Of a DNA stretch of 64,000 bases, positions 5,993 through 49,908 are shown piece by piece. The notes below the pieces were generated by a model. The model saw only the letters and a list, made by a program, of their open reading frames with translations. It was not told the DNA's origin and made no database searches. Made by a program: the position numbers and the translations under genes. The DNA comes from Mariniblastus fucicola (GTDB lineage: Bacteria > Planctomycetota > Planctomycetia > Pirellulales > Pirellulaceae), in contig NZ_CP042912.1 in assembly GCF_008087665.1 (NCBI RefSeq), forward strand, positions 1,302,001-1,366,000, written 5' to 3'. How positions within the stretch are numbered: position 1 is the stretch's first letter; every line of letters starts with the position of its first letter.

Positions 5993-6940
5993 TCAGGAGT
6001 CCGAACCGGAAGCACGCTGTCCCGGCCGTTGCTCGCTTTCGCGAACGATCTGCAAAAAGAGCTCTTCCAATGTGCTCTTCGGATTCTCGACGCCGATCAA
6101 ATCGCCGCCATGTCTCTTGATGACTTCGCGAATCTCTTCCTGAGCGGACTCTGGCAAGTTCTTGGCACGAATCGAGGTCTCGTCAGAAACCTGCAGCAAA
6201 CTGTCGACACGGCCGAGCTCTTTCAGGTCTCCCTGATAAAGAATGGCGATCCGATCGCAAACGTCTTGGACGTCGCCGAGTAGGTGAGAGCACATGACAA
6301 CGGTTTTGCCTTCGTCACGCAACTTCAGAATCATGTCTTTCATCTCGCGCGTACCAAGCGGATCAAGACCGGAGGTTGGTTCGTCCAGCAGTACGAGATC
6401 CGGATCATTGATCAACGCCTGAGCCAATCCAATTCGTCGCGTCATCCCTTTGGAGTACTCGCGAAGCTGGCGACGTTTTGCGTTAGTCAGTCCAACTTGC
6501 TTGATCAGACTCTGCACGCGTTCTTTGCGAACCTCTGACGGAATGTCGAACAGTCGACCGTAGAAATCCAGCGTCTCTTCGGCCGTGAGAAATTTGTAAA
6601 GATATGACTCTTCCGGCAAGTAGCCGATGCGTTCGTTTTTGGTAACTTCGGTGGCGTTTTCGCCAAACACCATCGCCCGACCGCTTGTCGGAAACAGCAG
6701 CCCCAGCAATAGTTTGATCGTGGTCGACTTTCCGGATCCGTTGGGACCAAGCAATCCAAAAATCTCGCCCTTTTTGACTTCCAAATCCAGTGCGTTGAGA
6801 GCCCGGACTTTCTGTCGTCCCCAGAAGTCACGGTAGATCTTGGTCAAGTTCTGGGCCTCGATCACGATGTTCGGATCGTAATCGGGATTGGTCTGTTCGA
6901 GCTTCGAGGTTTTTTTGCTCTCGGAAGTGTCAGTCGCCAT
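5993..6940 (-). CDS. ABC transporter ATP-binding protein (ABC-2 exporter type)
   Basis: A complete ABC ATPase of 315 residues: Walker [10 protein letters not shown] at residues 65-73, the Q-loop region at about 108-115 ([17 protein letters not shown]), signature [13 protein letters not shown] near 160, Walker [14 protein letters not shown] near 183, and the H-loop (MCSHLLGDV). The YSKGM signature and the DrrA/NatA-like C-terminal extension of about 80 residues place it in the exporter class paired with ABC-2 permeases. It is the first gene of an operon with the permease and the membrane-anchored partner. It supplies ATP-driven power at the inner face of the cytoplasmic membrane; the substrate cannot be read from sequence. 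Confidence 0.93.
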
Positions 6941-7157
6941 ATTGAGTTGATGGTTGAATGGAAAGGGGCCAATCGGGTGACAACCCGTTGGATAATGACA
7001 GAATACCGGCCTATTGTAGACCAGAGTCAGGTTTGAGCCAGCACGGCAAGTTTAACGGATTCCGCGTATTTTGCTACGGTCAGACGACGCAAGGTAGGCT
7101 GTTTGAGACCGGAGTTGCAAAGCTCTTTCGTCGCTACGCTTCAAGTCGATACGAGGT

Positions 7158-7943
7158 TCAATCATTTTGCCAATTTGGCTTCCGCTTTTCCAAAAACGCG
7201 GCCAGTCCTTCACGCGCATCTTTGCTTGCGCGGGCCTGAGCCGAAACATCGATCGACTGGCGAATTCTCGTCACCAGCCCGTTGCCGCCGACTTCATCGA
7301 GATGCCGACGCGTGATCGCCAGAGCCTCCGGCGAGCCTGACATGATTGAATCGGCCAACGACGCAACGGAACTTCGTAGCCTTTCACGTTCGACGACTTC
7401 GTAAACCAGCCCTGTCGTCGCTGCAGCCTGAGCACTTTGTCGGCGTCCGGAAAGCAACAAATGTCCCGCACGTCCTGCTCCGACGCGATGCACCAACAGC
7501 GGCGTGACCATCGCAGCGGTGATCCCCCGTTGTGGTTCGGGCAACGAGACAAAGGCGTCTTCGACAGCGACGACAAAATCACACGCCAGCACCATGCCGA
7601 CTCCGCCCGCGAGGACCGGGCCTTGCAACGCCGCAATCGTTGGCACTTTGGCGGTGAACAACGTCACCAGAAGTTCGCAGTAGTCTTTGGAGTCCTGAAG
7701 CCATTCCTTTTGGCCGTCAGCAGACGTTGCACGAGCCTGCATCTCGGCCAGATCCATTCCGGCGCAAAACACCTTGCCTTCGGCGTTCAGAACAAGGACT
7801 CGTGTCTGCGGATCGGCCAGAGTTTCGCTGACGGCGACCGATAGTTGCTGCAGCAGTTCGCGGCTAAGTGCATTTCGTTTTTCGGCGCGACAAAGCGTTA
7901 CAGTCGCAACGCCATCCTGAATCGTGTGTTGAACAAGAGCCAT
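7158..7943 (-). CDS. Enoyl-CoA hydratase/isomerase family protein
   Basis: A 261-residue crotonase-fold protein of usual family length. Both oxyanion-hole segments are visible: KVFCAGMDLAEM near residue 57 and GPVLAGGVGMVLACDF near residue 108, followed by LPEPQRGI near 134, which keeps a Glu where the catalytic residue normally lies. The family hydrates or isomerises 2-enoyl-CoA thioesters, and some members act on methylglutaconyl-CoA or aromatic acyl-CoA. No other fatty-acid or leucine catabolic gene is adjacent, so the exact substrate is open. It lies 63 bases after the preceding gene on the same strand and could be co-transcribed with it. Confidence 0.88.
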   Translation of the reverse strand: MALVQHTIQDGVATVTLCRAEKRNALSRELLQQLSVAVSETLADPQTRVLVLNAEGKVFCAGMDLAEMQARATSADGQKEWLQDSKDYCELLVTLFTAKVPTIAALQGPVLAGGVGMVLACDFVVAVEDAFVSLPEPQRGITAAMVTPLLVHRVGAGRAGHLLLSGRRQSAQAAATTGLVYEVVERERLRSSVASLADSIMSGSPEALAITRRHLDEVGGNGLVTRIRQSIDVSAQARASKDAREGLAAFLEKRKPNWQND

Positions 7944-8006
7944 AAAGCGTTCGGTGGGAAAGACTTCGAGAGTGAAGCTTCTATCCTACCGTTAACCTGA
8001 CGGGGC

Positions 8007-9197
8007 TCAAACAGGCAGCGAATTGAGTTGGCTTTCGACTTCGTCCAGCGAAACGCCAAAGACCGCCTGGGCGATGACGTCGACTTTCTCGCGGTCGCCT
8101 TCGATTCGAGTCGTCCGTTGCGTATGCGTACGGGATTCACCGGGCGCCAACGCGTATGCCGGGCTGACTGTTTCCAGCTCGTAAAACCCGCCAAGCTTGC
8201 CGCCGGTTTCATTTGGGCCATCGTTGTATCCGTTAATCGCGTCGCCGCAGTACGGATCGTCCTGGTATTCCCAGAGATTGTTGGTGTAACCGTGAGGAGC
8301 CTCATCTGGCATGCTGAACTGGATCACTGTCAGAACGCCTCGCTGCGAATCCCAGCTGCCCAGGAAAGGCAAAGCGCGTTTCTCCGAAAGTCCCAGCTTG
8401 CTACGGTAGTCGCCGTCACCAAGCAGAAAGATCATGCCCAGGTCTTCATTGACCGCCAGGCGTTTGGAGTCCAGTTTTCCAAAATAGTCCGATGTAACGA
8501 TCGTCCCCAGTTCGGATTCGTCGCCCTTGCGAAACGGGATCATCAGTGTCGCACCGGGAGATGGTTTGCTCATGCAAATTGCCCACAGCCCGATCAATCC
8601 AGTTTCCTTTTGCCAGGTTTTGTCACCTTTGTTCGTCAGCGTGTTGCGGCTTTCGTGAGAAACCAGGCTGACCCCATCCAGATCGGCATTAACGTGCTTT
8701 GCCGCAGTTTCGCGCGACAACAGTTCGACGGTACGCTTGAGTTCGATGTTGAATTCGAACCCACTCATGTTTTTCATCGACGTCGACTGTTTGGTTGTGA
8801 TCGAAGTGTCGCTTTTCTCAACCACGTCGTAGGGCATGGAGTCCAGAATTGTCGGAGTTCGCCAATTGACATAATCCATGGACACGCCGGGATCAAAGAA
8901 GACTGAAAACTGGCTGCCTTCTGGTGAGATCCAGATCCGGTCTTCGCCGCCGAACAGATTAATCTGCGGGTCGTGTTCTTTTCCGAAAACCTCGTAGTTA
9001 ATATAGCCGTAGCTCTGGCCGTTTTCGCCTTGGGAGGACGACGTCATCGTGCGTCCCTGAAGATCGGGAACGACGATCGCGCGTCCGCCTTCGGAGTTCT
9101 TCAGAACGTGGAAGTCGAAATGCTTGGCGAGAAAATTCGCGTCGTCCTGGAAGGAGTTTTCGGTCATCGATATGGCAGAAATAGGTGATTCAGGCAT
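8007..9197 (-). CDS. Uncharacterised protein (DUF6786-like)
   Basis: I do not know a function for this protein of about 397 residues. It has no signal peptide and no membrane segment, and reads as a beta-rich globular protein with many aromatic and Gly residues (for example GGEDRIWISPEGSQFSVFF and PFLGSWDSQRGVLTVIQF). The look is that of a galactose-mutarotase or carbohydrate-binding fold; I recall similar proteins labelled DUF6786, but this is from memory. The frame can be extended to a TTG at 9275; ATG codons at 9197 and 9167 are the realistic starts and neither has a clear ribosome-binding site. It lies upstream of the enoyl-CoA hydratase-family gene on the same strand. Confidence 0.65.
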   Translation of the reverse strand: MPESPISAISMTENSFQDDANFLAKHFDFHVLKNSEGGRAIVVPDLQGRTMTSSSQGENGQSYGYINYEVFGKEHDPQINLFGGEDRIWISPEGSQFSVFFDPGVSMDYVNWRTPTILDSMPYDVVEKSDTSITTKQSTSMKNMSGFEFNIELKRTVELLSRETAAKHVNADLDGVSLVSHESRNTLTNKGDKTWQKETGLIGLWAICMSKPSPGATLMIPFRKGDESELGTIVTSDYFGKLDSKRLAVNEDLGMIFLLGDGDYRSKLGLSEKRALPFLGSWDSQRGVLTVIQFSMPDEAPHGYTNNLWEYQDDPYCGDAINGYNDGPNETGGKLGGFYELETVSPAYALAPGESRTHTQRTTRIEGDREKVDVIAQAVFGVSLDEVESQLNSLPV

Positions 9198-30309: not shown

Positions 30310-30539
30310 TATGCAGAATTCGAGGTGTGCATCTGCTAATCCCTCCACTCGCCGCAAATTCGTTGCATTCGATTCGCCCTCGGTCGGAGTCGTATTGTGC
30401 GGGAAAAACCGGGGTAAATGGTGCAGCCCCATCTCTGGGAATCCCGATTCGAAAGAGGTAGTCGTTTTCTTGCACCTGGCATCAGCCGCCCATTGGAAGT
30501 GCGTTCCGGACTGGCGACCGCAAACTGTTGAGGGAACTG
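30310..30539. other. Intergenic region upstream of a repeat surface protein
   Basis: About 230 bases with no gene; it should hold the promoter of the following surface-protein gene. No riboswitch was recognised. Confidence 0.4.
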
Positions 30540-33377
30540 ATGAAGAGTAAAAAGTCGCGTCGATCGAACCGTAGAGTGGTTTCTGGAACAACCAACTATC
30601 AAAGCCTTGAGACGCGACGTCTCTTGGCAACCGCGTCGTACAATGCAGGCGCGCTGATTGTCGATTTTGGCTCTGCCAACGATTCCGCCATCGTCGACGT
30701 CAATGGAAGCGGCAACGTGACCGTCAACGGAAACGACCAGATCAGTGTCGACGACACGCCAACGACGGTCGCAGCGAGCTCCGTAGATTTCTTTGTCGCG
30801 TACGGAACCGCTGATGTCGGGCAAGACCTTAGCCTTGTCGCCACGCTGCCGGAACTGGAAAGAATCGACATTGCTGACGTTGATGTTATCTCGCTTCAAG
30901 GCGACTACGACGTTGACAGTGTTTCGCTAACGGGTGCGACGGTGATTTCGCAGAGCGCTGGATCAGCATTGATGGTTTCCGGTCTGACCACGATTGGCGC
31001 GACAGGCAACGTGTCTCTCGGGTCAGTCGCGAACGATTTTGGTGATCGGGTTTCCGTTATTGGTAACGATGTCCTGCTCCGTGAAGCCAACAGTATTCAA
31101 CTTGGGACAGTGACGACGACAGGGAATTTTCAGGTCGAGGCTTCACACATCGGCTCGCTGCTTTCACCAATTGTTGTCGCCGGCGATACGACTTTTTCAG
31201 CCGTCGATGGCGTTTCAATGTTGGAGTCTTCCATTGATACGCACAATCTGACCGTTTACTCATCCGATGACTTTAGCAATGTCGGAATGCATGAACTGAT
31301 CGTCAGCGGCGACCTCAGTCTCACCGGCGGATCCGTTTCTGGGCGGGCAACGTGGACCGTTTCCGGCAACACAACAGTCACCTCGATCGGACTGCGTGAT
31401 CTTACCGGCGACGCGATTGCCTTGGGTGGGGTCGATATCAGCACGACGGACTACACGGTTAGTGCACCTTTTGGTGACGTCGTCCTTGGAGACGCTACCG
31501 CGAGTGGGGACACCAGCGTCGAGGGGCTCCGCATCCGCATCGAGCCAACCGGCGGAAGTGGTGGAGAGTCTGACGGGCTGGCCAGTAGCAACGGAGATGG
31601 CGCAACATTCTCAGTGGATGGCGCCACGACGATCATGGCGACCGCGTTTCTGGATGCTGAAAACGCAACGATCAACTCGAACGATCTGACGATTGTTACC
31701 AGCTTTACCGATGTGATTCTGGGCACCGCGACGACCGTCACCGGCGACTTGATGATTTCTTCCGGCGGCATGGTAGAAGGCGGAACAGTATCCGTTGGCG
31801 GATCAGCAGAGATTGATTCTGTCCGGGACATCGCGCTGAACCTGATCGCCGATGGAAACTCGCGACTCGAATCTGGCGGCGACATTCTGCTCGAAGGCCT
31901 GTCCAGCGACTCAGCGACCTTAATCGCTGACGGAGCCGTGGCCAACCTTGACAACGCCGCGCTCGTTATCCAGAACAACCTTACGATCGAAGCCGACAGC
32001 GCTTCGTTGGGCGACATGTCGAACGACTCGTTTACCGCGACGCGAATCAAGGCGACCGTGGACAACGCTCTTGAAATTGAACAGGAATCGAATGTTCGAC
32101 TGCTCAATATCTCGGCCGGAAGTCTGGCAGTGAGTTCCACTGGAACGATCACCAATCGAAACGACGCCACGATTGATGTCGTCGGCGATGCCGAATTCTC
32201 TGGGACGAACATCACCATCGGCCAAACGGTCGAGGATACGTTTAACGCGGGGCGACTAAGTTTTAACGCGTCCAATACCGTCCAGATTACGGAAAACAGT
32301 GCGACCGAGATCTTCTCTGCCAACACGGCGCATATCGTCGCGATCAATACCGAAGGAGACCTGACGGACGATGACAATGCGTCAATTGACGTTGCATTTT
32401 CGACGCTGTTCGAAGGAGCCAATGTCACGATCGGCGACTCCGCGACGGACTCATTCAATACCCGGACGCTTTCATTTTCGAGTCCAGGCCATGTCGACGT
32501 TTCGCAAGACTCTCGAATCTTCCTGACCAACGCCAACGACAGCAACCAGCTCTCACTTTCGACACCAGTCTCAGTTCTTGATTCACCGACGACTCAAGTC
32601 AACGTTGCGGGTGAAGTTTCGTTCGACACGCCTTATCTGAACCTCGGGGACAGCGACTCGGATCAGTTCAACGCCGGTTCGGTCAGTTTCAATACGAGTG
32701 ATACCGTCAATCTGACTGAAGACAGCAACACTGTTTTCAGCGGCAACAGTGACGTTCGCCTCGCCATCATTCATGCGGGAGGAAGCCTGTCCACTGCAGT
32801 GAACGCTTCGGTTCAGGCAACGTCTGCTTCGCTCTATGCGACCGATGACATCCTGCTGGGAACCGAAGCCGGCGACTTTGTGGATATCGACCGACTTCAG
32901 TTCAACAGCCCGGAGGATGTGACGGTCGAGCAGGATGACTCGCTGTACTTCTTTGGAAACAACACGGCGAAGAACCTGACGCTGCTGGCTGATGGAGCCA
33001 TTGGCGACAGTGGAACAGCCTCATTTTCCATTGCGGATCACACTTGGCTTGGTGGCAACACAATCTGGATTGGCGAAAAGTCAACCGACACGTTTAACAC
33101 CGGGACACTGACTTTCGTGGCAACCGGCAACGTTGTGATCGGCGAGGACTCACTGATGATGATCCGTGGCAACAACACGGCGTACAACCTGACCCTCACG
33201 GCATCGAGCGTGATCGCAGACGACGACAATGCGGAAACCGTGGTCCAAAAGTTCGCCACCTTCACCGCTGACAGCGTCTACATCGGTGACTCGTTGACCG
33301 ACTGTTTCGAAATCGTGGACGGGCCGACCAATTTTGAAGTCAACGCAATCACGTCCAGCGTGACCGTTGGTTGCTAG
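30540..33377 (+). CDS. Large secreted surface protein with LEPR-xLL-like N-terminus and 71-residue repeats
   Basis: A 945-residue protein. A basic start (MKSKKSRRSNRRVV) leads to YQSLETRRLLATASY, close to the LEPR-xLL motif that planctomycetes place at the N-terminus of secreted proteins. The rest is Asp/Ser/Thr/Asn-rich beta-solenoid-like sequence with almost no Cys or Pro. From about residue 490, seven copies of a unit recur at 71 residues (70 once), each opening with IGDSxTDxF-like sequence; the last copy is cut short and the protein ends in Cys. ATG 30540 is preceded by TTGAGG at 9 bases. The role is likely cell surface or extracellular adhesion; that is inference. A long antisense frame here is a shadow. 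Confidence 0.8.
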   Translation: MKSKKSRRSNRRVVSGTTNYQSLETRRLLATASYNAGALIVDFGSANDSAIVDVNGSGNVTVNGNDQISVDDTPTTVAASSVDFFVAYGTADVGQDLSLVATLPELERIDIADVDVISLQGDYDVDSVSLTGATVISQSAGSALMVSGLTTIGATGNVSLGSVANDFGDRVSVIGNDVLLREANSIQLGTVTTTGNFQVEASHIGSLLSPIVVAGDTTFSAVDGVSMLESSIDTHNLTVYSSDDFSNVGMHELIVSGDLSLTGGSVSGRATWTVSGNTTVTSIGLRDLTGDAIALGGVDISTTDYTVSAPFGDVVLGDATASGDTSVEGLRIRIEPTGGSGGESDGLASSNGDGATFSVDGATTIMATAFLDAENATINSNDLTIVTSFTDVILGTATTVTGDLMISSGGMVEGGTVSVGGSAEIDSVRDIALNLIADGNSRLESGGDILLEGLSSDSATLIADGAVANLDNAALVIQNNLTIEADSASLGDMSNDSFTATRIKATVDNALEIEQESNVRLLNISAGSLAVSSTGTITNRNDATIDVVGDAEFSGTNITIGQTVEDTFNAGRLSFNASNTVQITENSATEIFSANTAHIVAINTEGDLTDDDNASIDVAFSTLFEGANVTIGDSATDSFNTRTLSFSSPGHVDVSQDSRIFLTNANDSNQLSLSTPVSVLDSPTTQVNVAGEVSFDTPYLNLGDSDSDQFNAGSVSFNTSDTVNLTEDSNTVFSGNSDVRLAIIHAGGSLSTAVNASVQATSASLYATDDILLGTEAGDFVDIDRLQFNSPEDVTVEQDDSLYFFGNNTAKNLTLLADGAIGDSGTASFSIADHTWLGGNTIWIGEKSTDTFNTGTLTFVATGNVVIGEDSLMMIRGNNTAYNLTLTASSVIADDDNAETVVQKFATFTADSVYIGDSLTDCFEIVDGPTNFEVNAITSSVTVGC
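31998..33374 (+). repeat. Tandem repeats encoding seven 71-residue units
   Basis: The glycine of each 'IGDSxTDxF' unit falls at residues 491, 561, 632, 703, 774, 845 and 916 of the encoded protein, that is 213-base steps (once 210). The DNA copies have diverged, so the repeat is clear in the protein but not as near-identical DNA. Confidence 0.88.
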
Positions 33378-44449: not shown

Positions 44450-44571
44450 CGTTCGACTGCACGGCCCTCAGTCACGATTGCCTTTCGCCGCTTGTCGTTG
44501 TGAGAAACTTGCCTTCGCCGTCAGTTGCCACTACGCTTTTACACACCGTTGTGCCCCAAATAGAGAATCCT

Positions 44572-45594
44572 ATGAACCGTTCTGTGCTCCGAATAATCCC
44601 TCTGGTTCTGACCAGTCTGTTACTCGTGTCGACCGCCGTTGGGCAAGAAAAAGTTGAGGATCCGATCCCGGTTCTGATCGTCGACGGCCAAAACGGATAC
44701 CACGGTGACTGGCCCAAGATCACGTTGATGATGAAGACTTACCTGGAAGAAACAGGCAAGTTTAAAGTCGACGTGTACCGCTCGAAATTTCTGATGAATG
44801 GGGCTCGTGAGAAAGAGTTTCCACTCGATGACGGCAAGGAGTACAAGGATTTCAAAGAAGCCAAAACGGATCCGGACTTCAAGCCGGACTTCTCGAAATA
44901 CAAATTGGTCGTGAATAACTTTGGCTACAACGCTGCTCCCTGGCCGAAAGAAACGCAACAGGCTTTCGAAAAATTCATGAAGGACGGCGGCGGCCTGGTT
45001 AGCGTTCACGCCGCCAACAACTGCTTTCCGCAATGGAAAGAGTACAACTTGATGACCGGTCTCGGCGGTTGGGGCGGACGCAGTCAGAAGAGTGGCCCGT
45101 ATGTTTACTACAACGACAAAGACGAAATCGTCCGCGACGATTCAGATGGAAAAGGCGGGCATCATGGGCCGCAGCACAAGTTCCAAATCGTGCTTCGCAA
45201 CACTGATCATCCGATCACGAACGGAATGCCGTCGAGTTTTCTGCATGCTCAGGATGAGCTTTATGAGCAGCTTCGCGGTCCGGCGTTGAACATGACGATC
45301 CTGGCGACAGCGTTTGCTTCGCCGGAGCAGAAAGGCAGCGGACGACATGAGCCTTTGTTGATCGCATTGGACTACGAGAAAGGCCGCGTTTTCCATACGA
45401 CGCTTGGCCATGCGGCGTATTCGTGCGAGTGCGTGGGTTTCATCACGACGTTCCTGCGAGGATCGGAATGGGCTGCAACGGGCAATGTTACGATTCCTGT
45501 TCCGAAGGATTTCCCGACGGCGACGGAAACCAGTGTGCGGAAGTTCGATGAACGGGGTGTGGAGGCGAGGGACGCCGAAAAAGCCGTGAAGTAA
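44572..45594 (+). CDS. Secreted ThuA-domain protein
   Basis: A 340-residue protein with a signal peptide (LRIIPLVLTSLLLVSTAVG, cleavage near residue 24). The remainder is the ThuA-like, class-I-glutamine-amidotransferase fold: VLIVDGQNGYHGDW, DGGGLVSVHAANNCFPQW, HPITNGMPSSFLHAQDELYE and GRVFHTTLGHAAYS. Planctomycetes carry many exported ThuA proteins, often with sugar or lipid catabolism. No catalytic Cys nucleophile is evident in the HAANN segment. The ATG at 44572 is chosen over 44500 because the signal peptide begins there. Confidence 0.88.
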   Translation: MNRSVLRIIPLVLTSLLLVSTAVGQEKVEDPIPVLIVDGQNGYHGDWPKITLMMKTYLEETGKFKVDVYRSKFLMNGAREKEFPLDDGKEYKDFKEAKTDPDFKPDFSKYKLVVNNFGYNAAPWPKETQQAFEKFMKDGGGLVSVHAANNCFPQWKEYNLMTGLGGWGGRSQKSGPYVYYNDKDEIVRDDSDGKGGHHGPQHKFQIVLRNTDHPITNGMPSSFLHAQDELYEQLRGPALNMTILATAFASPEQKGSGRHEPLLIALDYEKGRVFHTTLGHAAYSCECVGFITTFLRGSEWAATGNVTIPVPKDFPTATETSVRKFDERGVEARDAEKAVK

Positions 45595-45679: not shown

Positions 45680-47920
45680 TTAGCGGAAATTGATGACGGT
45701 CTGAACGTAGCGAACGAGCTGTTGGCCTAACGGCAGACTGCTGACTTCGATCTTGGCGTTGCCACGGAAGCCGGTCAAAAGGTGGCGATGGTCGCCGTGG
45801 AGAGAAACGAAAACTTCGTAGGAAGTCAGCAACGGAGACTCACCGCCGTTCTGATTTGGCTCCACCGCGACTTTTCCGCCGTTAGTGATCGACAGCTCAC
45901 GAGGCAACTCCGACAGCGAGTCGCGGGAAACGTTGATCACTTCGCCTTCGAATCGCTCGCCAGGAAACTCGTCCAACATCAACTGAACTTTCTGCCCGAC
46001 ATCGACCAGTTTGATGTCGGACTCGTCGACCACCAGCATGGCTTGCATCTGATTGGGATCGCCCACAATGCAGAACAGCGTCGATGCTTCAAGGAACGCG
46101 TTTCGGTTTTGCGGATCCAGCGGCGTGCCAGACCAACGTTGCAATGGTGCTCCGAATTCGTTCGCAGGAGGCGCCGCAACGTTTGGCGCTTCAATGATCT
46201 GACCGTCGCGAGCAGCGACCAGTTTCAGTTGGCTTTCTTTCCGTGACTGGACTTCCATCCTGCCGCGGATCTTGGCAATTCGCGCAGAAGTTTCCGCGAT
46301 CTGCCTGCCGATGCCTGCGCGTTCGCGATTGGCCAACTTCAGCGTCGCCAGGACAGCGGTCTCGCGAGCCAGATCACCTTTGAGCTGTTCCGCTTCCAAC
46401 TCCAGTTTGTCGCTTTCAAGGATTGCAATCGTCTCGCCTTTCGAAACCGTTTCGCCAGGCGACTTCATCAACTCGCTGATCTTGCCGGGTTCGACCACAA
46501 AAACCTGATCGGCATCGACCGGTCGCAAAACGAAACTGGCGGTCACGTTTCGGGAAACTGGAACAGAAAACAGAAACGCTGCCAGTCCAGCGACCAGCGT
46601 TGCGGAAATAAACAGTCGCAGCTTTTTCACTTCACGCAGCCTTCCCGGATAGAGGAAAAATTTCGTCAGTTTGAACATTGGGATCACGATCATGCCGACC
46701 AGCGACATCACGATCATCGCATGAGCCACAACGCTCAACCCATACGGTTCGAAGATCTGGATCAGGAACCAGAAAATCATCAGCATCACAAACCAGCGGT
46801 AGAAAAACGACGCCACCGAATACGCTGCGAACGCCCATTTCCGTCGCTTCGGCAAACTTCGGTGCTGAACAGGCTTCATGCCCAGGCAAGCGACTCGCAA
46901 CCAATTGACCATCGAAGTTTTGGACTTCTGCGCGAGGTTCGGGATCTCAAGATAGTCGGACAGCATGTAGTAACCGTCGTAGCGCAACAGCGGATTGAGG
47001 TTGAAGACGATAGTGCTGACCGAGCACAGAAAGATCGTGTTGAGTGCCAGATAGTGCAGCCAACCCGGATGCGTATGCCACCAAACGAACGTGGCCACGG
47101 CCGCGATCACCATTTCGACATACATTCCCGCAGCACCAATCGCGATGCGATGCCACTTGTTGGGCAGCAACCAGGAATCCGAAGTATTGCAATACATCGC
47201 CGGTGTCATCACCAGCAGCATGAATCCGATCTCATGGCACTCGCCGCCGAAATGTTTGCACATCAGGCCATGGCCAAGTTCGTGAATTGACTTGGTCACG
47301 ATCATGATCGCGCCCATAAACAGCATGTTCCGGACGTTGAAGAACTGACCGAACTCGGGGAGCTTTGAGTAAAACTCGTTGAGGTTGCTCAGCACCAACA
47401 CGGTCGCCGAAACCATTAGCAGTACGCACGCGAGCGTCGTGGACGGCCAAAACAGAAAGCGAACTTTTGGATACAGCCAGTTCAAAAATGGTTCCGGATC
47501 GACGCCTGGAAACCGGATCGACATTACGCTCATCAACAGCTGAGTCGCCTTCTGTTTCAGCTCTTTGTTGCGTCGCTGTTTCAGCGGCTCGGACTGCCCT
47601 GGCAGATCGGATATGAGCAATCCGTTCTTGTGCAGACTGTTGACCAGAAAGTGAATCGTCTCGGTCGTGATTTTGAGTTCAGGAAACTCGGCTTCCAGAG
47701 CATCGCGAATCTCAACCGCGCTCGTATCGCCATCCAGCATCTGACTGGCAAAGTACTCGGGTTCGCGCAACTGAAAGTATTTCAACGCCACCGGATCTTT
47801 CACGACCCACGAATCTTCTCCCTGATAGTTGCTGACTTCGATCACGAGGTCTGGTCGCAAACGCAACGCGATTGGACGGCGATCCGAAGATACATTGCTG
47901 GATTGGTTGACGGTCGCCAT
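45680..47920 (-). CDS. Fusion protein: PqqD-like, peptidase M50 and HlyD-type adaptor domains
   Basis: A 746-residue membrane protein. Residues 1-105 are a small winged-helix-like PqqD/HTH-type domain. Residues about 150-430 carry about eight hydrophobic helices with a site-2-protease-type metallopeptidase: HELGH at 213-217 and the second-site motif NPLLRYDGYYMLSDYL (Asp315). After about residue 455 comes a HlyD-like adaptor: a membrane helix, a biotinyl-lipoyl half (VVEPGKISELMKSPGETVSK), coiled coil and a beta-barrel. Such fusions are known in several bacterial phyla, but the substrate is not. It overlaps nothing but begins two bases after the stop of its partner gene (47923-49908), so the two are one transcript. 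It has no ABC ATPase or TolC gene nearby. Confidence 0.9.
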   Translation of the reverse strand: MATVNQSSNVSSDRRPIALRLRPDLVIEVSNYQGEDSWVVKDPVALKYFQLREPEYFASQMLDGDTSAVEIRDALEAEFPELKITTETIHFLVNSLHKNGLLISDLPGQSEPLKQRRNKELKQKATQLLMSVMSIRFPGVDPEPFLNWLYPKVRFLFWPSTTLACVLLMVSATVLVLSNLNEFYSKLPEFGQFFNVRNMLFMGAIMIVTKSIHELGHGLMCKHFGGECHEIGFMLLVMTPAMYCNTSDSWLLPNKWHRIAIGAAGMYVEMVIAAVATFVWWHTHPGWLHYLALNTIFLCSVSTIVFNLNPLLRYDGYYMLSDYLEIPNLAQKSKTSMVNWLRVACLGMKPVQHRSLPKRRKWAFAAYSVASFFYRWFVMLMIFWFLIQIFEPYGLSVVAHAMIVMSLVGMIVIPMFKLTKFFLYPGRLREVKKLRLFISATLVAGLAAFLFSVPVSRNVTASFVLRPVDADQVFVVEPGKISELMKSPGETVSKGETIAILESDKLELEAEQLKGDLARETAVLATLKLANRERAGIGRQIAETSARIAKIRGRMEVQSRKESQLKLVAARDGQIIEAPNVAAPPANEFGAPLQRWSGTPLDPQNRNAFLEASTLFCIVGDPNQMQAMLVVDESDIKLVDVGQKVQLMLDEFPGERFEGEVINVSRDSLSELPRELSITNGGKVAVEPNQNGGESPLLTSYEVFVSLHGDHRHLLTGFRGNAKIEVSSLPLGQQLVRYVQTVINFR

Positions 47921-47922
47921 GA

Positions 47923-49908
47923 CTACCAGATCGGAAACAGAACCTTGGCCTGGAAGAATTCCTTGACCGGATGAAACCAGACGTATCCCAGCGACGCGTC
48001 GCCGCAGTCAATCTTCGCCGAGACGCCGGATCGCGATTGGCGAACGTCAATGCTTTCGATATCGATGTCCACGAGGATCTTCAGATGGTGCTCGTTGGCC
48101 GCGTTGAGCTGCGTTGAAGTCCCGACGGCTTTCACCTGTCCGGTATGCGTAACGCCCGGTTCGGCAGCAAGAATGAACTCGACGTCAACGGGTTCGTCGT
48201 TGGTTTTGGCCTCGTTCCATCGCTTCATAAAGTGCCCGACTTTGCGGTCCGGCAGGTCCAGTTCCAGAGTCCATTTGCCGTCGACGTTAGCGATCTCCAT
48301 CAGCTGGTCCATGGCACTGACGGTGCGATTTTGCAGCCGCTTGCGAACATCCCACGTCATGACTTGCCCGGAAAGCGGACTGGTGACCACAAGATCCGCT
48401 TTTCGTTTCAGGTAAATTCGTTGCTGTTGCTGCAAACTGGCAAGCTCGGCCTGTTGCGACTTGAGGTTCTCCTGCTGAAGCGATTCTTCTTCGCCACGTT
48501 TTCGCCCCAACCGACTGGACTCGATCGACCGAATCGACTGTTCGACTTCTTTGATTTGGCCTTCGAGTTCCGTGAGCTGGTAGTCGAGGTCCAGGTCCGT
48601 AAGCTTGACAATCGGGTCGCCTGACTTGACGTCCTGGCCATGTTGCACCAGCACTTTGCTAACGATGCCCGTGCCCTTGGAGAACACCAGTTCACGTTGC
48701 TCCGGAATCAGCGAACCGTCGCACGACAGTTGGAAATCTGACTGGATCAGCGTTAACGCCAGGCAAGCGGCGACCAGTCCGATTACGGCCGCGATCGTTT
48801 TCGGTAGATGCCGAGCCGCGAAAATAATTTTGGATTTCCCCAGCCATTTCCAAATGCTGTAGAGAAAAAGCGACTGGTGATTCCACGAATTTCGAAACGC
48901 GTCGCTGCCGTGTCGCGTCGCCAGTTCCACAACGGAAGCTTGCTGCTGACGATCCCATTGTTCCCGGCAGTGCTCTACGACGATGCCGCCGATCAATTGT
49001 CGTTTTTCACGGTGTGAATCGACTTCCATTTGAGAAGAATCAGCTTTGTCGAAAACTGGCACTACCACCATTGTTCGCGTTGCCGAATTCGCCAGATACT
49101 CCTGAAGCGGATTTTGGATTTGCGGCGGCAACGAATCTTCGTCCGGATACCAGAACAGCTGACGCGTCGGCAAAACTTTGTTCGCGACTTTCTCCAACAG
49201 TCGAACTGCATTGCTACGCCGGTTCATCGAAGGCTGGCCACTGACGGCAATTGTTCTGCAGCGGCGACCTCGCATTTGCACGACCGTCGCCCGATCGCAA
49301 TCCAGATACCGTCGAGTCTCATTCGCGATCGTCCTGGCGTTGTCTTTCAGGTCCAACGACTGGTGCAACGAATGGATGAAAGCTTCCGTTGCGGCGATGT
49401 CGATTCTGGTTGCCGGTTCGGAGGACGGAGCTTGAGTCGCACGCTGCGGCGGCATTCCCCACACCGCTGCGGCACGGCTGAGCGATGACAACGAGCCAAC
49501 TTTTCCGGTGACTTGTTCTCGCGGTTGGTCGCCTGCAAAAAACAGTTCCGCGACTTCGGTGCGTCCGCCATGAGCGATGGACACCATCAGAATCGTCGGA
49601 TGCAATTCTTTCACGACCGATCCGGGCGTCTCGTTGTCAGCCGAAACGATCAGCGGTTCTTTCGAGGCAACGGCTTGTCGCAAAAAGTCGTTGTGTTGAC
49701 TGGCCGAGCAACCCAGCTTCAGCATCTGCTGTTCGCCACGATACGATTGGCAAATCGGCTTGGGGATCTTCTCCGTGCAGTCCCAAAACATTCCGCCGAG
49801 CACGTCGTACTCGTGGATCGCATGGTCGATGAACCCCTCAAGGAATTCACGACGATTCGTGGACTTGCTGGCGATCTGTTCAATGGTTTGTTGCTGCGTC
49901 GCGTTCAT
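47923..49908 (-). CDS. HlyD-type adaptor protein with GAF domain
   Basis: A 661-residue protein that precedes the M50-HlyD fusion in the same direction. Residues about 1-160 are helical and regulatory in look; about 170-330 resemble a GAF sensor domain (ETRRYLDCDRATVVQMRGRR). A membrane segment near 370-388 (AAVIGLVAACLALTLI) leads to a HlyD adaptor: a lipoyl half near 430 (VSKVLVQHGQDVKSGDPIVKL), a coiled coil and a matching second half (KVGHFMKRWNEAKTND). Thus a cytoplasmic sensor faces an envelope adaptor. No transport ATPase is adjacent. Together with the next gene it appears to be a complete two-component envelope module whose cargo is unknown. Confidence 0.85.
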   Translation of the reverse strand: MNATQQQTIEQIASKSTNRREFLEGFIDHAIHEYDVLGGMFWDCTEKIPKPICQSYRGEQQMLKLGCSASQHNDFLRQAVASKEPLIVSADNETPGSVVKELHPTILMVSIAHGGRTEVAELFFAGDQPREQVTGKVGSLSSLSRAAAVWGMPPQRATQAPSSEPATRIDIAATEAFIHSLHQSLDLKDNARTIANETRRYLDCDRATVVQMRGRRCRTIAVSGQPSMNRRSNAVRLLEKVANKVLPTRQLFWYPDEDSLPPQIQNPLQEYLANSATRTMVVVPVFDKADSSQMEVDSHREKRQLIGGIVVEHCREQWDRQQQASVVELATRHGSDAFRNSWNHQSLFLYSIWKWLGKSKIIFAARHLPKTIAAVIGLVAACLALTLIQSDFQLSCDGSLIPEQRELVFSKGTGIVSKVLVQHGQDVKSGDPIVKLTDLDLDYQLTELEGQIKEVEQSIRSIESSRLGRKRGEEESLQQENLKSQQAELASLQQQQRIYLKRKADLVVTSPLSGQVMTWDVRKRLQNRTVSAMDQLMEIANVDGKWTLELDLPDRKVGHFMKRWNEAKTNDEPVDVEFILAAEPGVTHTGQVKAVGTSTQLNAANEHHLKILVDIDIESIDVRQSRSGVSAKIDCGDASLGYVWFHPVKEFFQAKVLFPIW

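Follow-up and report, generated by a model that had tools for sequence, protein, structure and literature searches.

A GAF–HlyD and M50–HlyD gene pair of Mariniblastus fucicola as probable adaptor subunits of a SecA-driven export machine for large LEPR-XLL-type exoproteins

The gene pair and its domains

The window analysed here, a stretch of 64,000 nucleotides from Mariniblastus fucicola (contig NZ_CP042912.1, positions 1,302,001 to 1,366,000; coordinates without a prefix are those of the window), carries two adjacent genes for HlyD-type adaptor proteins. One protein has a GAF domain and the other has an M50 metallopeptidase core and an N-terminal PqqD-like domain, of the type known as the recognition element (RRE) of ribosomally synthesised and post-translationally modified peptides (RiPPs). 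The features of the pair are as follows.

47923..49908, minus strand: GAF–HlyD adaptor gene (661 amino acids, aa), comprising a GAF domain and a HlyD half, with a single hydrophobic segment (residues 371-389)
48916..49353, minus strand: GAF domain (residues 186-331; PF01590, 40.7 bits)
45680..47920, minus strand: RRE/PqqD-like – M50 – HlyD fusion gene (746 aa), here M50–HlyD
47606..47878, minus strand: PqqD-like/RRE domain (about residues 15-105; AlphaFold model and Foldseek)
46565..47494, minus strand: membrane M50 metallopeptidase core (residues 143-452; PF02163, hydrophobic segments and helices in the predicted model)
47270..47284, minus strand: HELGH zinc motif (residues 213-217)
46973..46996, minus strand: NPLLRYDG second metal-ligand motif (residues 309-316; D315)
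45695..46561, minus strand: HlyD/membrane-fusion half (residues 454-742; Pfam and predicted model)

Only two bases separate the stop codon of the GAF–HlyD gene from the ATG of the M50–HlyD gene, which bears out the coupling proposed in an earlier, sequence-only reading of this DNA. The gene from 50037 (plus strand) is divergent on the upstream side and the gene at 44500-45594 (plus strand) is convergent on the downstream side; as both flanking genes lie on the opposite strand, the operon consists of the pair alone. It contains no ABC exporter gene.

Pfam matches to GAF and HlyD_3 were obtained for the GAF–HlyD protein, which was matched at E 1e-10 in all 60 genomes of the set of relatives (M. 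fucicola is counted both in this set and in the 28 genus genomes used below). The M50–HlyD protein matched Peptidase_M50 (28.7 bits, cut-off 27.2), HlyD_3, HlyD_D23 and Biotin_lipoyl, and has the HExxH motif, NPxxDG-type motif and membrane helices of an M50 (site-2) intramembrane protease. Residues H213, E214, H217 and D315 did not vary in either of two alignments (23 and 35 sequences), each of which includes the window protein. HExxH was kept in all 16 proteobacterial homologues with a called gene (of 23 loci), and the second metal motif was found by pattern in 15 of them. The top fold matches of the full model were the adaptors Spr0693, MacA, MexA, EmrA and AcrA. Five M50–HlyD paralogues are present in the M. 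fucicola genome. The domain reading made from the sequence alone, with its intact HELGH, is therefore borne out by Pfam, the invariant residues and the predicted fold.

The N-terminal domain was modelled with AlphaFold over residues 1-130 (34 sequences), giving strands followed by three helices at a mean predicted local distance difference test score (pLDDT) of 83.8. When the model was compared with the PDB using Foldseek, the top seven matches were all RRE proteins (TbiB1, lasso-peptide B1 protein, PqqD; E 0.0015-0.04, probability 0.99-1.00), and sactipeptide enzymes ranked behind them. A profile search with the domain gave PqqD at E 0.04 and TfuB1 at E 0.07, both behind the unrelated FurB (0.015). 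No match was found in a Pfam PqqD search of the M. fucicola protein; a family member from Methylosinus passes the Pfam PqqD cut-off (28.7 vs 23.4). At the level of predicted structure it is well supported that the domain is PqqD-like as a fold, that is, a winged helix-turn-helix RRE.

Secondary SecA proteins and related modules

Of the five SecA_DEAD proteins found in the M. fucicola genome, one is canonical, with a frame of 1,279 aa; the frames of the other four span 622-662 aa. Two complete modules, L026 and L027 (L and G denote loci and genomes of this analysis), each comprise a SecA, an OEP/TolC-like protein, a small HlyD, a HlyD of 628-632 aa and an M50–HlyD; they lie near 5.38 and 3.35 Mb of the same genome, with L125 and L121. 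No GAF domain was found in the long HlyD of L026, and the GAF matches of L027 and L028 were under the cut-off. The other two secondary SecA genes lie away from complete modules. The cognate SecA of the window pair (L038-type) is located at C1:876043-877896, approximately 0.47 Mb from the pair, and has 617 aa with SecA_DEAD, the preprotein cross-linking domain and part of the P-loop domain. Its Walker A and DEVDS motifs are intact, and SecA_SW was not matched at E 0.01.

Among the matches listed, a window-type pair was present in seven of the 28 genus genomes. The window-type M50 (at least 49% identity) was found in G000, G016, G002, G024, G027 and G013, and the seventh genome, G006, is represented by a GAF fragment alone, cut off where the contig ends. 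An L038-type SecA (at least 52% identity) was present in the same seven genomes (Fisher 8e-7, uncorrected for descent and with most assemblies incomplete). In five of the seven it lies 0.2-0.35 kb from the GAF gene, and it is separated from the pair in M. fucicola and its sister G016. Across the 60 relatives, again among the matches listed, a secondary SecA was present in 58 genomes and lay within 12 kb of 51 of 150 M50 matches, in 36 genomes. Canonical SecA proteins (open frames of at least 1,136 aa) are excluded from these counts, as is a G014 match in a 677-aa frame that ranked among them.

A small HlyD gene lies between the GAF and M50 genes in many loci of other families of the order, and this third HlyD was present in congener and order-level loci, including 58 of 80 named planctomycete loci. 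A GAF–HlyD-like gene, scored by similarity to GAF–HlyD proteins, was present in 53 of the 80 within limited flanks. Rhodopirellula baltica carries a GAF/M50 locus (L198). TolC-like genes were found in loci L101 and L099. No third HlyD belonging to the window pair turned up in the parts of the M. fucicola genome that were examined.

Near the cognate SecA, L038:4901-7864 holds a TolC-like gene (OEP) and, judged by eye, a probable ABC ATPase gene. The TolC-like gene is a candidate for the TolC of the pair's machine.

The absence of a transport ATPase and TolC noted from the sequence alone holds for the two-gene operon, but not for the genome or for related loci, where SecA and TolC-like genes occur. 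The further idea of a self-contained, protease-driven module is not supported for this pair, as a secondary SecA is linked to the pair in congeners and encoded elsewhere here, with HlyD and TolC-like genes in some relatives. Homologous loci with an ABC ATPase and a TolC-like protein, which the sequence-only reading had held would tell against that idea, are closely approached, with SecA in the place of the ABC ATPase.

Candidate clients in M. fucicola and Planctomycetota

Large exoproteins that begin with a LEPR-XLL-type motif were found beside several modules. Two M. fucicola frames of 7,682 and 7,791 aa begin with LEERVLFDG and LEDRVLFDG, followed by DUF4347 (E 1e-52 and 2e-50). They are divergent from two complete SecA/M50 modules, and their starts lie at most about 0.4 kb from TolC-like genes. 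L025, another GAF/M50 pair without a local SecA, is adjoined by a 1,959-aa protein with LEPRQLLTAD, and the orphan SecA of L037 is adjoined by an 817-aa LEARNLLA protein (6709-9162), which is of the same type as a protein of the window. In the congener G013 (L101) the neighbouring gene carries LEERMMLS, with the SecA in between. The LEPR-8K model (NCBIfam) matched 12 places in the M. fucicola genome at E <=1, of which three were over the cut-off and 11 fell in frames longer than 1,000 aa; the 7,682- and 7,791-aa frames account for two of the 12.

The window protein in question is the following.

30528..33377, plus strand: candidate client, LEPR-XLL-type exoprotein with DUF5649 repeats (949 aa; SLETRRLLATA near residue 26)

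A strict motif pattern missed this LETR gene and a looser one recovered it; its link to the pair can only be inferred.

The distribution of the markers was examined in 118 Planctomycetota genomes. M50–HlyD was present in 30 (E 1e-30), LEPR-8K in 13 (E 0.01, all over the cut-off) and DUF4347 in 11. M50–HlyD was carried by 12 of the 13 LEPR-8K genomes, 10 of the 11 DUF4347 genomes and 17 of the 19 in their union, as against 13 of the remaining 99. Counted by genus, the LEPR-8K figures were 10/11 vs 14/84 (Fisher 2e-6). None of 14 control genomes was matched in the LEPR-8K and DUF4347 marker searches, and nine of the 14 stronger DUF4347 matches (E <=4e-16) had an M50 gene no more than 15 kb away on their contig; genome-list overlaps and contig distances were counted by eye. 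A control search for an LssB-type ABC protein in the same 118 genomes was uninformative, as none passed the cut-off and 115 matched at E 1e-80. In a tree of M50 proteins (midpoint root, with eight of 29 inner branches open) the clade of the window protein was bracketed by three clades that hold LEPR- or DUF4347-linked loci.

Plasmid loci of Proteobacteria

Matches were obtained in 71 and 74 plasmid records, from which 23 loci were taken, one per genus among the 40 matches listed for each set (one is named only Rhodobacteraceae). Citrobacter and Alisedimentitalea are among the listed genera that fell outside this sample. An open frame of 2,000 aa or more lies upstream of the module, on its strand, in 19 of the 23. 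Twelve of these giants are annotated genes, of up to 48.7 kb (Variovorax). The other seven (L236, L242, L244, L246, L252, L253, L258) are open frames only and are weaker evidence, as long antisense frames occur in these G+C-rich records.

A LEPR-XLL-type motif was found in eight of the 10 neighbour N-termini that were looked up (six fetched separately and four inside a locus, with a Magnetospirillum gene of 1.5 kb and a Phyllobacterium gene of 4.2 kb among the 10). Neighbours with EPRxLL(S/N)AD occur in Pseudosulfitobacter, Methylosinus, Mesorhizobium and Pontibrevibacter, where SecA is in the locus, and in Thalassospira, where there is no SecA in the stretch. Those with LE(P/A)Rx(M/L)FD(A/G) occur in Azospirillum, Variovorax and Kosakonia, without SecA. 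Two neighbours are annotated as LEPR-XLL in their records. A LEPR gene of Tistrella, which lies downstream of the module, came from the motif scan itself and is not among the 10.

In Methylobacterium extorquens AM1 the module corresponds to META1p2399-2402 (PMC4452313), and the island 2402-2415 holds the 47.5-kb gene META1_2412, which encodes a protein of 15,831 residues (PMC2680597). By gene numbers the SecA/M50 module therefore abuts the island of the 15,831-residue protein, a link that is made in neither paper in the portions available.

Proposed machine and its clients

A locus composed of GAF–HlyD, M50–HlyD, a secondary SecA, a third HlyD and sometimes TolC/OEP was published in 2015 (Kamneva, Poudel and Ward, PMC4452313). 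It was reported from Planctomycetes, Verrucomicrobia, Proteobacteria and others, a role in secretion was proposed, and the authors state that its members can sit elsewhere in the genome (PMC4452313). The available portion of that article names no substrate, and 'pqqd' is absent from its main text (PMC4452313). The window pair shares with it the GAF with HlyD/biotin_lipoyl and the Peptidase_M50 with HlyD; it differs in that SecA_DEAD is a neighbour in the published locus, whereas in M. fucicola the SecA is 0.47 Mb away and the third HlyD was not found. That the pair belongs to this SecA/HlyD/M50 machine is very likely.

It is also likely that the M50–HlyD family as a whole exports LEPR/DUF4347 proteins. 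For the window pair itself, as distinct from its paralogues, the same client class is suggested with less assurance by the clade bracketing in the tree, the neighbour gene of G013 and the genome-level co-occurrence. Taken with what was computed directly, namely the parts, the intact catalytic motifs, the RRE-like fold, the linkage to SecA in relatives and the LEPR/DUF4347 linkage and co-occurrence, the pair probably encodes two adaptor subunits, both of the inner membrane, in a SecA-driven, type-I-like machine for large LEPR-XLL-type exoproteins.

In such a machine the cytoplasmic RRE/PqqD-like domain of M50–HlyD would bind the N-terminal signal of an unfolded client, and the truncated secondary SecA (C1:876043-877896) would drive its movement with ATP. 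The two HlyD halves, together with a third, small HlyD adaptor and a channel of the TolC type, would form the path through the periplasm and outer membrane. The M50 site would remove the signal of the client, and the GAF domain might tune the activity through some ligand. As the N-terminal domain folds like an RRE, it is proposed as the reader of the LEPR signal, with the M50 domain trimming that signal; the chances of this division of labour seem roughly even. The sequence-only reading had a peptide recognised by the PqqD-like domain. A leader-binding-type domain on a membrane protease is retained from it by the predicted structure, but no convincing precursor gene lies in the operon, and the client is probably the N-terminal signal of large exoproteins and not a peptide. 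More tentatively, the modules could represent a protein-secretion class of their own: an RRE and an intramembrane protease on an adaptor would read and remove the N-terminal LEPR address of giant proteins, while a truncated SecA would drive their export through HlyD/TolC.

Several observations weigh against this interpretation. The window exoprotein gene at 30528-33377 is 12 kb from the pair, and one match of this kind in 64 kb does not exceed the background. A local enrichment of LEPR genes at loci of the window-type clade was rejected, with 12 open reading frames (ORFs) in 1.29 Mb for the 80 closest loci under the loose pattern vs 4 in 0.56 Mb of sampled M. fucicola DNA. The LEPR-8K scores of the 7,682- and 7,791-aa frames are under the cut-off (15.8 and 14.3 vs 17 bits), and at the loose threshold of E <=1 seven of the 14 control genomes were matched too, one over the cut-off. 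The Fisher values for co-occurrence with M50–HlyD (LEPR-8K 1e-7, DUF4347 3e-6, union 1e-10) ignore phylogeny; 13 of the 30 genomes with M50–HlyD were matched by neither the LEPR-8K nor the DUF4347 model, and the marker genomes G146 and G088 are without M50–HlyD at E 1e-30. The plasmid neighbours of Phyllobacterium and Magnetospirillum have no LEPR motif. As regards the motor and channel, there was no SecA near the M50 gene in 24 of the 60 genomes among the matches listed, SecA was found in only eight and TolC-like genes in four of the 80 named planctomycete loci (limited flanks), and the OEP/TolC-like gene near the cognate SecA (L038:4901-7042) could belong to the adjacent probable ABC ATPase (by eye). 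The RRE resemblance has a best E of 0.0015, with no match at or under 0.001.

What is new here is the client class and the RRE role proposed for the 2015 locus, and the link of LEPR proteins to an exporter. No paper linking the SecA/HlyD/M50 locus to LEPR-XLL or DUF4347 was found in the openly licensed literature (no preprints), and both the exit route of the giant LEPR-XLL exoproteins and the role of the 2015 locus are open in the searchable literature. Joining the two yields a signal, reader, motor and protease that can each be tested. Because some of the loci sit on plasmids of Proteobacteria that can be cultured, tests are possible outside Planctomycetes. If this is correct, giant proteins with LEPR-XLL or DUF4347 would leave planctomycete and proteobacterial cells by this route, the 15,831-residue protein of M. 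extorquens AM1 among them, and an RRE would be used in protein export instead of peptide maturation.

Relation to other systems

The resemblance to type I secretion (HlyB–HlyD–TolC) lies in the HlyD adaptors, the TolC of related loci and the giant, repeat-rich candidate clients. Unlike type I secretion, the ATPase is of the SecA type with no ABC exporter in the operon, the protease and RRE are fused to an adaptor, and the candidate signal is N-terminal and not C-terminal. The LEPR-XLL/LEPR-8K model (NF012209) has its N-terminal motif in common with the candidate clients and covers the motif only.

In the accessory SecA2 systems of Gram-positive bacteria, an additional SecA serves certain surface proteins, many of them large. 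The likeness is that of a second SecA for particular large proteins; the differences are a SecA of 617 aa without a SecA_SW match at E 0.01 and a HlyD/TolC path.

Alternative explanations

Each of four other explanations is less probable than the proposed export machine. The first is an autonomous export unit without an ATPase of its own, in which M50–HlyD is the inner-membrane channel or serves clients delivered by the housekeeping Sec system. A separate proteobacterial clade (plasmids of E. coli, Azospirillum, Niveispirillum, Kosakonia and Burkholderia) is consistent with it, as the cluster holds a neighbour protein, TolC, two HlyD and M50–HlyD with no SecA or ABC ATPase inside. SecA was absent from the stretch in seven plasmid loci (L239, L240, L247, L248, L249, L253 and L255, E. 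coli included), of which six have an annotated giant gene, TolC and two HlyD genes and L253 is unannotated. A version without its own motor may thus exist in the related plasmid clade (e.g. L239, L240, L247-L249), although motors encoded elsewhere in the hosts were not searched for. For the window pair this is unlikely, given the occurrence of the window-type pair and one SecA type in the same seven genus genomes (adjacent in five) among the matches listed.

A sensor-controlled small-molecule efflux or stress system, with GAF as the sensor and M50 as a site-2 protease in signalling, would fit the GAF domain, the resemblance of the HlyD halves to the MacA/MexA/EmrA adaptors and the ABC ATPase-like ORF (by eye) that separates the cognate SecA from the TolC-like gene of L038. 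SecA is a polypeptide motor, however, and most of the proteobacterial operons that were examined have an exoprotein gene next to them, which leaves efflux with a similarly small probability.

In RiPP-like peptide maturation, the PqqD-like domain would bind a small precursor, M50 would cut it as in daptide or epipeptide pathways, and the HlyD halves would export the product. Besides the RRE-like fold, residues 27-412 of M50–HlyD match the daptide_HExxH model NF041824 (E 1.5e-56, 192.2 bits) and the protein matches the LiaK/YydH model (NF058609) at 51.9 bits, so that a homologous PqqD-like and M50 region is shared with these proteases. M50–HlyD differs from them in its added HlyD half, in scoring below both equivalog cut-offs and in that no precursor peptide was found. 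Membership of the daptide protease family was rejected by score (cut-off 300 bits), and four family members beside giant exoprotein genes score 152-173 bits on the same model, which therefore does not single out peptide makers. Small ORFs were sought in the operon and judged by eye; no convincing precursor was among them, and an operon-encoded peptide substrate was rejected for want of a suitable ORF. The small gene beside related modules encodes a conserved domain protein of 106-128 aa (DUF3467). Peptide maturation is thus improbable.

Lastly, the pair could be what remains of a locus that has relocated, its function decayed or assumed by paralogues. This is suggested by the SecA having moved away here and in G016, the five M50–HlyD paralogues and the third adaptor not located, but is very improbable, as both frames are intact and 81% and 75% identical to the G016 copies, the catalytic residues are kept and the separated SecA is intact.

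Additional gene at related modules

The DUF3467 gene adjoins several modules in both Proteobacteria and Planctomycetes (L238:12705-13025, L106:6909-7295, L109:8291-8629 and L110:14369-14749), and is a possible extra component of the module.

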